A stretch of 64,000 bases of DNA from Acidobacteriaceae bacterium. GTDB taxonomy: Bacteria; Acidobacteriota; Terriglobia; Terriglobales; Acidobacteriaceae. Shown piece after piece: positions 16,644 through 23,268 of this stretch (positions are counted from its first letter, which is position 1; each line of letters begins with the position of its first letter). The notes below the pieces were generated by a model. It had not been told where the DNA came from, ran no database searches, and worked only from the letters and a program-made list of their open reading frames with translations. The stretch lies in contig DAIDGW010000220.1 of the NCBI GenBank assembly GCA_027452245.1, forward strand, positions 62,001 to 126,000, in the 5' to 3' direction. The translations under genes and the position numbers were made by a program.

Positions 16644-16859
16644 ATGGATGTTGATCGCATCATTTCCGAAATCCAGCAACTGGAGGAAATGTTCGAAGCT
16701 GCGGACACTCGGCCGTTCAGCGCGAGTGACATCTCTGCTGCGAACCGTAGGCACGATGAAATGATGGCGCATAGCCCTTGGTTTAAGCTCTGGCAACATT
16801 ACGGAATTTGCTGCCGGCCTGAGGCTCCTGTGCTCCAACAGCCGCAATCGGGGAATTAA
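16644..16859 (+). CDS. Conserved small acidobacterial protein
   Basis: 71 residues starting MDVDRIISEIQQLEEMF, with a central TRPFSASDISAANRRHDEMM and a WFKLWQHYG motif. I recognise the pattern from small hypothetical proteins in other Acidobacteria but know of no function. The acidic N-terminal helix and aromatic C-terminus suggest a small soluble partner protein. The start is supported by the promoter placed immediately upstream and by the absence of other start codons. Confidence 0.7.
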   Translation: MDVDRIISEIQQLEEMFEAADTRPFSASDISAANRRHDEMMAHSPWFKLWQHYGICCRPEAPVLQQPQSGN

Positions 16860-17302
16860 ACCTGGGTTTCACAGATGGACTCTACCTTTAATTCAAAGGG
16901 CATTCCGAATATGAAGTGCCATTCTGCACTGTTCTCTCTGCTTGTCCTTGTTCGGCATCTGCAAACAGCCCATGCGCGTGACCCCGTTGCTCCCCACATT
17001 TGCAGGTGTAAGGACGAGAGGGCGATCCCGCACATTGCCCACTGATCTGCCGCTCTGGTGTGCGTTCTTAGATGTTCGCCTTCACACGACAGGATTCGAA
17101 ACGCGATATACTGTCAATACTTAACCTCGAAGACACGCCTAAGAACCTTGCGACCTTCGCGATTGAGAGATCGAGAGGCGTGATCCTTACATTCGTTGTT
17201 TCTGTGCGCGGCATTCCATCTGGCCTTTAAGCGGGTCCGCGTGATCGGCTGTCCAACGCGTAGTTCCAAAGCTGACAATCTTTTTCCTATCAGGAGTTCG
17301 CC
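16860..17302. other. 443-bp gap; possible promoter and long leader
   Basis: No coding signal. A TATACT at about 17105 (context gatatactgtcaa) resembles the -10 of the preceding gene and would give a leader of nearly 190 nt for the coupled operon at 17303. Such a long leader before an RNA-binding-protein operon could be regulatory; no known riboswitch was recognised. Confidence 0.3.
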
Positions 17303-17461
17303 ATGTCCGCACGCAACGGAGACAAATCCAGGTTTCACCGGGAGCGAAAACAAAAGATAGCGCGCCGGAAACGTACGCACGAACTGCTGCAGCGCGCAAT
17401 GCACGCACGCAAGTCAGCCGACTCGAGAGTTCACACACAGCCAAGGCCGGTGTCAGGATGA
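17303..17461 (+). CDS. Small basic protein, first gene of RRM operon
   Basis: 52 residues (MSARNGDKSRFHRERKQ, then KIARRKRTHELLQRAM), very rich in Lys and Arg and probably RNA- or DNA-binding. TCAGGAG lies eight bases upstream of the ATG. The TGA overlaps the next ATG in ATGA at 17458-17461, which argues strongly that this is a real, translated gene. Similar short basic proteins occur in other Acidobacteria; function unknown. Residues are consistent with a ribosome- or nucleoid-associated peptide. Confidence 0.65.
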   Translation: MSARNGDKSRFHRERKQKIARRKRTHELLQRAMHARKSADSRVHTQPRPVSG

Positions 17462-18060
17462 ATACTCCGTTGCTGGAGCTATCGGCCACCCGGCCCATTC
17501 CCGATGCCCTCAAAAAGAAGCGAGTATTGCTGATCGACACATCGCATGCGAAGCGGGATTTGCGTGCAGAAGTCATGCGGAAGCTGGGGATTGACGTCGA
17601 TAGCGCCGCGGATATCGTGGAAGGCCGTATATGGTGGAAACCTGCACTGTACGACCTGGTATTGATCAGCATGGAAAAGGGGCGGGGCCAACGCGACAAG
17701 TTTTGTGATGACCTGCGCAGCGCGGCTCCCCCGCAGCGGTTGGCTTTCCTGGTGGGGCGGCCAGAATATCTCACCGATTCGCCTAGCGCAGATCAAGAAT
17801 TGGCAATGGAGAGCGGTGACGAACAGGTTGCTATTGGCGGAGGAGACGGCAGATTTCCCGCTGTTCCAGGAGATACGACGCAGCGTTGGGGCATTCTGGA
17901 AGCTTCCCGAAAAATCTCCGCGGTGCGCTCCGCGTTCATGGCGCGCACGCAAGCTATGCGAGCCCTGCCTCCTCCGCCTCGAGATTCTGAAGGACGAACG
18001 GCGAAACCAAGTATTGCACTGGCCAGCCTAGACGATTTACTGAAAGAGGAATTGCGATGA
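17458..18060 (+). CDS. Degenerate response-regulator receiver protein
   Basis: 200 residues. The first 120 have the receiver pattern: KKRVLLIDTSHAKRDLRAEV (first strand and acidic residue), then WWKPALYDLVLISMEKGRGQ. There the phosphoacceptor Asp expected in DLVLxD is replaced by Ser. It is thus probably a pseudo-receiver that senses by protein contact and not phosphorylation. The C-terminal 80 residues are Pro/Arg-rich and lack an output domain. Both ends overlap neighbours in ATGA, tying it to the small basic protein and to the RRM protein. Confidence 0.7.
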   Translation: MNTPLLELSATRPIPDALKKKRVLLIDTSHAKRDLRAEVMRKLGIDVDSAADIVEGRIWWKPALYDLVLISMEKGRGQRDKFCDDLRSAAPPQRLAFLVGRPEYLTDSPSADQELAMESGDEQVAIGGGDGRFPAVPGDTTQRWGILEASRKISAVRSAFMARTQAMRALPPPPRDSEGRTAKPSIALASLDDLLKEELR

Positions 18061-18404
18061 AGAATGTTTATGTTGGCAATCTGCCCCACAGCACAACCGA
18101 AGCGGATTTGCGAAATCTGTTTGAGGCGCACGGTGCGGTGGAAAAGATCACACTGGTAACGGACCGGGATACAGGCCGCTCTCGCGGCTTCGGGTTCGTG
18201 GAGATGAGCAATCCGAGCGAAGCCGACAATGCTATCGCGATGCTCAATGGGACTGACCTGGGTGGACGCACGTTGACGATCAACGAAGCCAAGCCTAAGG
18301 CGGAACGCCCTCGGGGCGGAAGCCATCGCTTTGGCGGTGGAGGCGGCCGTGGGCGAGACGACTATCGCGGCCATCCCCGCCAGCCGCGGGAACCGCGCTG
18401 GTAG
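18057..18404 (+). CDS. RNA recognition motif (RRM) RNA-binding protein
   Basis: 115 residues: one RRM (residues 1-80) and a Gly/Arg-rich tail. RNP2 is VYVGNLP at residues 4-10 and RNP1 is RGFGFVEM near residue 43, with aromatic RNA-stacking residues intact. The RGG-like tail (GGGGGRGRDDYRG) usually adds nonspecific RNA binding. Bacterial proteins of this type (cyanobacterial Rbp-like) respond to cold or localise mRNAs. It is the third gene of a tightly coupled operon; rpsU and a DEAD-box helicase lie within 2 kb. Confidence 0.93.
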   Translation: MKNVYVGNLPHSTTEADLRNLFEAHGAVEKITLVTDRDTGRSRGFGFVEMSNPSEADNAIAMLNGTDLGGRTLTINEAKPKAERPRGGSHRFGGGGGRGRDDYRGHPRQPREPRW

Positions 18405-18480: not shown

Positions 18481-18690
18481 ATGCCAAGAGGCCGATCAAC
18501 ATTCACCAAGCGCCAGAAGGAACACACACGGCAACAGAGACAACGCGACAAAGCCGAGCGCAGGAGTCAGCGAAAGCAGGAGAAGTCTGATGTAGGGGGC
18601 GTCGACGAGATGGCGGAGTTGCGCGAACATGCTGCAGAGCAGGCAGCACTTTTCAATCTTGGCGTAGAGGATGCTGGCAACGGGGAATGA
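18481..18690 (+). CDS. Small highly charged protein
   Basis: 69 residues. The start at MPRGRSTFTKRQKEHTRQQ is chosen because the charged helical region begins there; upstream in-frame sequence overlaps the RRM gene. The N-terminal half is Lys/Arg/Gln-rich, the C-terminal half acidic (VDEMAELREHAAEQ), probably one long helix. Similar proteins recur in Acidobacteria. Function unknown; the neighbourhood of RRM and S21 suggests a ribosome- or RNA-linked role. Confidence 0.6.
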   Translation: MPRGRSTFTKRQKEHTRQQRQRDKAERRSQRKQEKSDVGGVDEMAELREHAAEQAALFNLGVEDAGNGE

Positions 18691-18827: not shown

Positions 18828-19052
18828 GTGGCAGAAATTCGATTGCAAGAGGGCGAATCCTTAGAGAATGCGCTCCGGCGGTTCAAACGAAAGGTTCAGA
18901 CCGAAGACATCATCAAAGAAGTGAAACGGCACTCGTACTACTTGAAGCCGGGCGAAAAGCGCCGGGTGAAATCCGCTTTGGCGCGGAAACGGGCACGGAA
19001 AAAATTCCGGAAAGAAGGATCATCTTCACGGGATTCCCGCCGGGAAGCGTGA
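18828..19052 (+). CDS. rpsU: 30S ribosomal protein S21
   Basis: 74 residues with the S21 pattern: IRLQEGESLENALRRFKRKV, then SYYLKPGEKRRVKSALARKR. S21 joins the small subunit near the anti-Shine-Dalgarno end of 16S rRNA and assists initiation. GTG start with GGGAGG nine bases upstream. The C-terminal tail is basic and Ser-rich, as in many S21 proteins. It lies convergent to the DEAD-box helicase. Confidence 0.95.
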   Translation: MAEIRLQEGESLENALRRFKRKVQTEDIIKEVKRHSYYLKPGEKRRVKSALARKRARKKFRKEGSSSRDSRREA

Positions 19053-19076
19053 GCAATCCGGCATTTGCATCGGTGG

Positions 19077-19112
19077 CAGGTTGCCGGGACGGTTGACCCT
19101 CCCGGCAACCTG
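19077..19112. terminator. Bidirectional hairpin between rpsU and the helicase
   Basis: A perfect 13-bp inverted repeat (CAGGTTGCCGGGA with its complement) around a ten-base loop lies between the two convergent stops. There is no T tract. Confidence 0.6.
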
Positions 19113-19121
19113 CTTACCACA

Positions 19122-20318
19122 CTAGACGAATATCTCGCCCGGCAACGCGGTGAGGGTCCGCGAGGCTAGCGTATTTTGAATGATTGGCCTTGGTGCCCCC
19201 GCCATTGCCGTTTCGGCCTGCAAACGTTCAATCTTCAATCTGAGAGTACGTTCGATCTGGCGCAATTCCACCACCTCGGCTCCAGCCGCCAACGTCGAGG
19301 CGCGTCCCTGAAGTCCGGCTCTACCAGTCCGGCCAACGCGATGAATGAAGTCTTCGGCCATTTTGGGCACATCGTAGTTAATGACGTGGGCAACGTCATC
19401 CACGTGCAAACCGCGGGATGCGATATCAGTTGCGACCAGCACCTGGAAACGGCCTTCCTGAAATCCGCTCAAAGCTCCGTTGCGTTGTGACTGCGAGCGA
19501 TCGCCATGAATCATGGCGACCGCAAAACCGTCGCGTACCAACTCCTTGGTCAGGCGGTCGGTGCCTCGCTTCGTGCGCGTAAAAATCAGCGTCTGACCTG
19601 ATTCGGCATAGAGCAGTTGGCGGAGAACGTCGAGTTTTTCTCCCGGACGTACTTCGTACGCTGTGAGTTGCACCGTCTGGGCCGGCTTGAGCACCGAGCC
19701 TAAAGCGACCCGCACGGGATCGTGCATATAGTCATTGATGAGGCTGGCAACCGACTGCTGCATCGTGGCTGAGAAGCACAGGGTCTGGCGCTGCTTGGGC
19801 AGGGTTGCAAGTATCCGCCGAATCGCTGGCAGAAATCCCATATCCAACATGCGATCCGCTTCATCGAGTACGAGTAGCTTGACGTGTTGCAAGTCAGCGA
19901 AAGTGCGGTTGACCAGATCTTGCAGTCGTCCCGGAGTGGCAATCACTAGTTGCGACCCAGTCCGGAGACTTTGGATCTGCGCCTTCTCAGAGACGCCACC
20001 GATGATGAGGGCTGCCTTAGGCATCGTCTTCGTTCGGAGTTGTTCGTACTGTTCGTGTACTTGCATCGCGAGTTCGCGTGTCGGTAGCAGCACTAACGCG
20101 ACGGTATGGCGTGCTGGCTCCCGGTTCAGGGTCTCAATGACCGGGAGGAGAAATGCCAGTGTCTTACCAGTTCCTGTGTCGGCGGTGCCAATGACATCCC
20201 GGCCTTCGAGAGCAGGAGGGATGGCACGTTCCTGGATGGGGGTGAGGCTAATGAACTGAGCTGCCGCGAGCTTCCGCTGTAGCGCAGAAGACAGGGGCAG
20301 TTCTGAGAATTTGGTCAT
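19122..20318 (-). CDS. DEAD-box ATP-dependent RNA helicase (RhlE-like)
   Basis: 398 residues, the bare helicase core plus a short tail. Motifs in order: Q motif FISLTPIQERAIP, Walker A TADTGTGKT (near 47), PTRELA, TPGRLQDL, Walker B DEAD with LDEADRMLDMGF, SAT, VLVATDIASRGLHV and HRVGRTGRAG. It unwinds short RNA duplexes using ATP, in ribosome assembly, mRNA decay or cold adaptation. The short C-terminus lacks the DbpA/CsdA RNA-binding domain, so RhlE/SrmB-like is the best guess. Confidence 0.95.
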   Translation of the reverse strand: MTKFSELPLSSALQRKLAAAQFISLTPIQERAIPPALEGRDVIGTADTGTGKTLAFLLPVIETLNREPARHTVALVLLPTRELAMQVHEQYEQLRTKTMPKAALIIGGVSEKAQIQSLRTGSQLVIATPGRLQDLVNRTFADLQHVKLLVLDEADRMLDMGFLPAIRRILATLPKQRQTLCFSATMQQSVASLINDYMHDPVRVALGSVLKPAQTVQLTAYEVRPGEKLDVLRQLLYAESGQTLIFTRTKRGTDRLTKELVRDGFAVAMIHGDRSQSQRNGALSGFQEGRFQVLVATDIASRGLHVDDVAHVINYDVPKMAEDFIHRVGRTGRAGLQGRASTLAAGAEVVELRQIERTLRLKIERLQAETAMAGAPRPIIQNTLASRTLTALPGEIFV

Positions 20319-22545: not shown

Positions 22546-23268
22546 ATGCGCATACGCGTGCTCTTCTTCGGAGTCCTGAAAGATCTGGTCGGCAGGCCAG
22601 CCGATTCCATCGAACTCCGCGATCACGCTTCCGCCCGCGAAGTGCTCGATTATTACCAGTCGCAATTCCCGCAATTGAAAAATGCCGCAGCGTCGCTAGC
22701 CATCGCGGTAAACCAGCAATACGCCGATCCTTCAACTACGCTGAAATCCAACGACGAAGTTGCCCTGCTTCCTCCGGTAAGTGGAGGATCGGAACTTCAG
22801 CCAACCGCTACTACCACCTCCCACTGCGCGATCCAGCGTTCGCCCATCGAGACGCAGACCATTCTCAACCGGCTCAAGCAGGGAAGTGACGGCGCCGCCG
22901 TAGTATTTGAAGGCGTCGTGCGCAATCAGACCCGCGGTCGCAAGACGCTGTATCTCGACTATGAAGCTTACGAATCCATGGCCATGCAGCAGATGGACGA
23001 ACTGGCGGCCAAAGCCCTCGCGGATTTCAAAATCCGCGACGTCGCCATCGTTCACCGCCTCGGCCGCCTCGAGATCGGCGAGATCAGCGTATTGATCGTC
23101 GTCGTCTCCGCTCATCGTGCCGCGGCCTTCGACGCCTGCCGCTGGCTCATCGACACCCTCAAGCGCACCGTCCCCATCTGGAAAAAAGAGTATTTCGAAG
23201 ATGGCGCCGTTTGGGCCGACGGTGACCCCTTTCCCCCCGAAATTCCTCGCGCCACCCCCGCCCCATAG
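22546..23268 (+). CDS. Molybdopterin synthase, MoaD-MoaE fusion
   Basis: 240 residues. Residues 1-81 are MoaD (FFGVLKDLVG, NDEVALLPPVSGG); residues about 95-235 are MoaE (VVFEGVVRNQTRGR, YEAYESMAMQQM, VAIVHRLGRLEIGE, WKKEYFEDGAVW). The enzyme inserts two sulfurs into cyclic pyranopterin phosphate to make molybdopterin. MoaD normally ends in Gly-Gly, which is thiocarboxylated; here the GG is followed by SELQP and a linker. Either the chain is cut after GG, as reported for mycobacterial MoaX, or this copy acts differently. No other moa gene is near. Confidence 0.92.
   Translation: MRIRVLFFGVLKDLVGRPADSIELRDHASAREVLDYYQSQFPQLKNAAASLAIAVNQQYADPSTTLKSNDEVALLPPVSGGSELQPTATTTSHCAIQRSPIETQTILNRLKQGSDGAAVVFEGVVRNQTRGRKTLYLDYEAYESMAMQQMDELAAKALADFKIRDVAIVHRLGRLEIGEISVLIVVVSAHRAAAFDACRWLIDTLKRTVPIWKKEYFEDGAVWADGDPFPPEIPRATPAP

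Follow-up and report, generated by a model that had tools for sequence, protein, structure and literature searches.

What does a receiver-like protein do when its gene is fixed between those of a small basic peptide and an RNA-binding protein? The question was raised by three genes at 17303-18404 of a 64,000-nucleotide stretch of DNA (the window) from an Acidobacteriaceae bacterium (assembly GCA_027452245.1, contig DAIDGW010000220.1, positions 62,001 to 126,000), all of them on the + strand and joined by consecutive 4-base overlaps, both ATGA. They encode a basic peptide, a pseudo-receiver and a protein with a single RRM. An earlier note on this DNA had described the three genes, their identities and the ATGA junctions, all of which was borne out by the coordinates and by the RRM and receiver matches; the leader, a fourth small protein, rpsU and a helicase gene are parts beyond the trio considered there. 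The best explanation, given a probability of about 0.5, is that the locus would be a leader-controlled small RNA-binding operon of the stress or cold type, which has gained an aspartate-less receiver as an optional modulator.

Conservation of the overlapping genes

Presence of the genes at the genus level was counted in 61 relative genomes, and the junctions were read in a separate collection of 43 related loci (44 with the window), which shares genomes with the first set. The full-length receiver was found in 23 genomes (24 loci), all within the genus, and in 23/23 of them the trio stands in the cassette, so the conservation in other Acidobacteria that the earlier note had proposed to look for is present. 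The RRM gene begins where the receiver gene ends at each of the 24 loci, with an overlap of 4 bases in 23 and of 1 base in L023, and a homologous NGDK peptide is encoded upstream of the receiver. In the locus collection the 4-base overlap between peptide and receiver genes was present in 41 of 44 loci, the window included (37 ATGA, 4 GTGA); the remaining three were unreadable (L034 and L069 at contig ends, L068 with an N run). Where both genes could be read, in 42 related loci, ATGA joins the receiver and RRM genes in 40 cases, 39 of them at -4; L054 has the same ATGA but a broken RRM frame. The exceptions were L065 (-1) and L053 (+276), and L070 ends before the RRM gene.

Selection was estimated from the ratio of nonsynonymous to synonymous substitution rates (dN/dS) in eight pairs each for the receiver and the RRM gene, and in three window pairs and one other for the peptide. 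The ratio was 0.13-0.20 for the receiver over about 200 codons, 0-0.06 for the RRM gene, and for the peptide 0.13-0.20 in the window pairs and 0.60 in the pair L044/L045; the L030 peptide was unusable because it is frame-shifted. Given the conserved overlaps and neighbours and the low dN/dS, the three genes are real, kept together and under purifying selection.

The RRM protein matched Pfam RRM_1 (E 4.5e-25, 87.7 bits against a cut-off of 20.7) and NCBIfam Rbp_regulator NF058537 (104.5 bits, above the cut-off of 100). It contains the sequences RGFGFVEM and VYVGNL, which we take to be RNP1-like and RNP2-like motifs, respectively, and RNA binding is predicted.

Both ATGA junctions had been read in the earlier note as suggesting a fixed ratio of products. 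This reading did not hold up, as Shine-Dalgarno-like sites (energy -5 or lower) were found at both internal starts: in 37 loci they precede 26 receiver starts and 29 RRM starts, compared with 23% of background windows. The count excludes L053 and L065, in which the RRM gene begins elsewhere than at the ATGA. The receiver ends in a C-terminal tail, LDDLLKEEL, whose final codons also serve as the Shine-Dalgarno sequence for the RRM gene; in the window this reads AGAGGA. Since such sites lie inside the upstream genes, the overlaps alone do not fix the product ratio, and a fixed ratio is not established from the sequences.

Several variants of the cassette were observed in the course of this comparison. 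One metagenome-assembled genome (JOPF018, G030) carries two copies of the trio, with the peptide frame-shifted in L030 and intact in L033. The cassette at L054 (5995-6955) is decaying, with a broken RRM frame, no fourth gene and no leader match, and a further copy, L034, is present in the same isolate (JOPF126). At L031 (579-938), L032 (4828-5112), L033 (4477-4785), L053 (4611-4886) and L071 (4660-5031) the cassette is preceded by a second RRM gene, some 1 kb away and on the other strand.

The receiver and its distribution

The window protein scored 15.1 bits with Pfam Response_reg (PF00072), below the cut-off of 30.2, and a match to this family at E<=0.1 was obtained for 28 of 39 receiver orthologues. 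The matches of the receiver profile to PDB entries were response regulators (best E 1.3e-4), and residues 20-105 of the AlphaFold model (beta1 to beta4) matched receivers best (Z 9.8, root-mean-square deviation 2.8, 80 residues). Past beta4 the model departs from receivers: beta5 with its usual Lys is absent, residues 102-141 are disordered, and a helix (146-169) lies beside an invariant W-G..E-A segment, followed by a short C-terminal helix. The conserved helix contains QRWGILEA..IS.VR, and 40 positions are invariant among the 39 orthologues, some of them outside the REC core. No ANTAR match was among the families listed for these orthologues at E<=0.1. The phospho site and the acidic pair, whose columns were assigned from the profile alignment to PDB response regulators, are altered: the former carries Asn in 27 of the 39 proteins, Ser and Asp in 5 each and His in 2, leaving 34 without Asp, and in the latter the first residue is Asp in 39/39 and the second is Thr in 29, Ala in 7, Ser in 2 and Val in 1. 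Alignment and model together identify the predicted protein as an aspartate-less receiver that carries its own tail. The idea, put forward in the earlier note, that a signal controls RNA binding is kept here as a hypothesis, with the classical phospho-Asp absent (Ser in the window, Asp in 5/39).

The receiver is not a constant part of the cassette. The 69-residue basic protein encoded behind the RRM gene was found in 29 of 37 genus genomes (own included), 23 with the receiver and 6 without it, and the other 8 have neither. These six genomes (G002, G019, G021, G022, G028 and G031), together with G168 of another genus, carry the peptide, the RRM protein and the basic protein without the receiver. 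In G021 an in-frame remnant of 44 residues is left, in which the two ends of the receiver are fused and which overlaps the gene on either side; the final receiver codons, with the RRM Shine-Dalgarno sequence and the overlap, persist before the RRM start in G002, G019 and G022. On a tree of 51 cassettes (L054 and L070, having no fourth gene, were left out) the absence of the receiver needs five changes, at least four of which are forced by well-supported branches. From these changes and the remnants it follows that the receiver was lost more than once and is an optional part of the cassette.

The earlier note had named, as an observation that would speak against the trio, separate occurrence of the genes in relatives without co-occurrence. 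This was not seen for the receiver within the genus, but co-occurrence is one-sided: besides the seven genomes above, the peptide homologues in other Acidobacteriota mostly have no RRM call in the locus, and many receiver-family genes in other genera are without an RRM gene.

Beyond the genus, a hidden Markov model search found the receiver family in 64 of 399 class genomes. Near-full-length cassettes occur in other genera at L074, L077, L079 and L080 (the last at a contig end), and more distant family members precede an RRM gene at L082, at L091 and twice at L081, where the first of the two pairs is joined by the same ATGA. Within the genus, a diverged receiver paralogue precedes an RRM gene at L026. 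At L089 the RRM gene lies upstream of the receiver-family gene, and most other distant members have no RRM gene within about 1.5 kb. RRM genes are scarce, at 1-3 per genome; five genomes hold 10 of them, 7 beside a receiver-family gene, and had been chosen for having one. The peptide family was found in 20 of 396 phylum genomes, the weakest matches being probably due to chance, and these loci mostly have no RRM or fourth-gene call. In another genus, L088 (1468-2558) and L086 (1255-2558) have a receiver-family gene followed by a gene for 161-167 residues with no Pfam family; at L088 the two overlap by 4 bases, immediately downstream of a DEAD-box helicase gene.

The leader and the neighbouring genes

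A conserved leader with two near-invariant boxes (Table 1) starts 8 bases past the end of the TATACT sequence and about 180 bases before the peptide gene. The predicted transcription start falls at about 17118-17121. The TATACT box was not called by the consensus promoter scan, and a good -35 sequence was not seen. A pattern search placed the leader in 39 of 43 related loci, and a covariance-model search that covered 59 sources (a subset) added L053, which gives 40/43; of the others, L034 and L069 end too early and the degenerate cassette L054 gave no match. It was also found in 6 of the 7 receiver-less loci, the seventh (L139) being near a contig end. It is single-copy in its own genome, and in a survey of 299 class genomes it occurred in 11, once in each, ten of these preceding a cassette or a receiver gene. 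One match in G326 (L112, E 0.006) was dropped as due to chance because it lies inside a coding frame. The leader gave no Rfam match. By eye, the leader loop could pair with a downstream GGCG in several loci. At L110 (1399-1800) the leader directly precedes a different receiver-like gene, which seemingly also lacks the phospho-Asp.

Table 1. Features of the cassette and its surroundings in the window
Feature	Position	Strand	Basis or remark
Likely -10 box, TATACT	17107..17112	+	sequence; GTATACT-type box at a similar leader distance in most loci listed
Conserved leader, 54 bases, box 1 CTTAACCTCGAAG and box 2 CTTCGCGATTGAG	17120..17173	+	pattern and covariance model
Basic peptide, 52 residues, motif MSxxNGDKxRFxRxRxxKIxRR	17303..17461	+	Shine-Dalgarno AGGAG at 17292-17296
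Pseudo-receiver, 200 residues	17458..18060	+	REC-like core (about residues 20-105), disordered linker, conserved helix, C-terminal tail
Single-RRM protein, 115 residues, Gly-rich tail ending RQPREPRW	18057..18404	+	Pfam RRM_1, NCBIfam Rbp_regulator
Basic charged-helix protein, 69 residues (MPRGRSTFTKRQKE..), consistently found with the RRM gene	18481..18690	+	present in 41/43 related loci
rpsU, ribosomal protein S21, extra copy	18828..19052	+	Pfam Ribosomal_S21 6.5e-18
GC-rich hairpin between convergent rpsU and helicase genes	19070..19120		sequence
DEAD-box RNA helicase (CshA/RhlE-like), convergent	19122..20318	-	Pfam DEAD 2.4e-51, Helicase_C 8.3e-31

The 69-residue protein was present in 45 of the 61 relative genomes; neither it nor the window peptide could be assigned to a family (none above cut-off for the former, none in Pfam or NCBIfam for the latter). 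The extra rpsU copy occurs only in a closer clade (7 of 43 related loci), and a second rpsU lies elsewhere in the same genome; the DEAD-box helicase is a neighbour in 32 of 43 loci. The hairpin between them is probably a two-way terminator, and a sub-threshold Rfam match to mir-196 on it was considered spurious. An upstream reading frame of 71 residues (16644-16856) was rejected as a member of the system, since tblastn, run on 28 loci, found it only in that of the window. In the RRM tree, metagenome-assembled genomes of Candidatus Sulfotelmatobacter stand nearest among the named relatives. Farther away in the window, a reading frame of 240 residues (22546-23268) presumably encodes a MoaD-MoaE fusion.

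Explanation, alternatives and known systems

Conservation of the cassette, the trio in 23/23 genomes, purifying selection, the REC fold, recurrence in other genera and the leader all support the explanation given at the outset. In such an operon the leader, placed at the mRNA 5' end, would act as a control site and might be bound by the RRM protein itself. The overlaps would put the synthesis of three proteins at one site on the mRNA, which would favour assembly over a strict ratio. The receiver, for which the usual phosphorylation is hardly possible, would bind a partner, the RRM protein or one of the two basic proteins, by means of its REC-like surface together with the conserved helix behind it, and so tune RNA binding. 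The stress or cold role, the binding of the leader by its own product and the contact between receiver and RRM protein are what we infer. A narrower version, in which a phosphorylation-independent receiver binds the RRM protein, sets its RNA binding and forms with it a pair feeding back on its own leader, is rather unlikely.

Several observations weigh against the modulated RNA-binding operon. The receiver model has a mean pLDDT of 64.9, with 102-141 disordered or unmodelled and most of the core at about 80-90, and the receiver is dispensable, being absent from 7 of 51 cassettes. Receiver-family genes also adjoin an mrcA-like gene, cspA and a 161-residue gene. The pairs of the putative leader helix are mostly invariant, with one double change only, so the covariation test gave no proof of a helix, and RNA folding of the leader was no more stable than that of shuffled sequences (z -0.17).

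The main rival, that the genes are only co-expressed and the receiver acts elsewhere (for example with a kinase or at the cell envelope) without any contact with the RRM protein, is possible if doubtful. It is favoured by those other neighbours of the receiver family, one with a 4-base overlap, by the seven relatives that retain the cassette without the receiver, and by G196, G097 and contig C203 of G323, where the leader precedes receivers with no RRM call in the locus; however, within the genus the full-length receiver always precedes the RRM gene, and, rare as RRM genes are, they are found paired with receiver-family genes in separate genera as well. It is improbable that the middle gene was kept mainly as a translational relay, by which ribosomes pass from peptide to RRM gene and the protein matters little. 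The remnant in G021, overlapping both neighbours, and the three other receiver-less loci with last codons, Shine-Dalgarno sequence and overlap retained would suit such a relay, but about 200 codons of the receiver evolve at a dN/dS of 0.13-0.20 with invariant core residues, and at L160, L161 and L109 the peptide and RRM genes stand apart with no relay.

An ordinary phosphorylated response regulator acting through its RRM partner is very improbable: Asp is kept in 5 of 39 orthologues, and at the end of beta3 in several diverged relatives, but the phospho site is Asn, Ser or His in all the others, the second acidic residue is replaced in 39/39, and the model lacks beta5 and the usual Lys. For the leader itself three readings are possible: a structured RNA, an RNA site to which a protein binds, and a DNA operator. 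The last, with the boxes as inverted half-sites for a transcription factor, would be compatible with the best explanation and is put forward tentatively. The boxes, in which 11 of 13 pairs are complementary as RNA, do form a nearly invariant imperfect inverted repeat, and RNA folding was no better than that of shuffles; on the other hand, the most frequent variant (A-U to G-U, in 17 rows) keeps RNA pairing and not DNA symmetry. In the alignment of 47 rows, 98.6% of 517 cells form RNA pairs, a figure limited as a counterpoint by the fitting of the alignment to the structure; one row, also included in the pair counts, is a minus-strand match at L052 (E 0.21), complementary to the true match.

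Among known systems, the cyanobacterial single-RRM Rbp proteins (Rbp1/RbpA1 type) come close to this cassette; rbpA1 reportedly has an rpsU neighbour, and we know of neither the receiver nor the NGDK peptide in those systems. REC-ANTAR regulators are single polypeptides with an ANTAR domain, whereas here two polypeptides are involved, with an RRM and with ANTAR not matched. Cyanobacterial Rbp genes are described as having conserved boxes in the 5' untranslated region and a role in cold (PMC9333190), a precedent that favours the best explanation, and in REC-ANTAR antitermination regulators such as EutV and NasR a signal domain is linked to RNA binding (PMC3369931, PMC7496416). RbpB of Bacteroides thetaiotaomicron is a bacterial RRM-1 global RNA binder, and in the available part of the source neither a receiver partner nor a coupled operon is mentioned for it (PMC11697453). 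ALR domains have a REC fold without the phospho-Asp, are frequent in Acidobacteria and are enriched with RNA-binding ANTAR modules (PMC4395418). The window receiver resembles them in its REC fold lacking the phospho-Asp and differs in being separate from its presumed RNA-binding partner and in having a helical C-terminal part of its own in place of a known effector domain. Regulators with an RRM, receivers without the aspartate and RNA binding linked to a REC domain (ANTAR) are already known. Their combination did not turn up in the literature searched: no receiver-RRM operon or pairing was found in the open-access literature, subscription papers being mostly outside that scope.

Little is known about the regulation of bacterial RRM proteins, and the RNA biology of Acidobacteria has hardly been studied. 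A receiver that is fixed beside an RRM gene and under selection, yet repeatedly missing, constitutes a natural experiment in the form of cassettes with and without it. Together with the defined leader, this variation of the cassette provides a means of testing whether signals control RNA binding in Acidobacteria.
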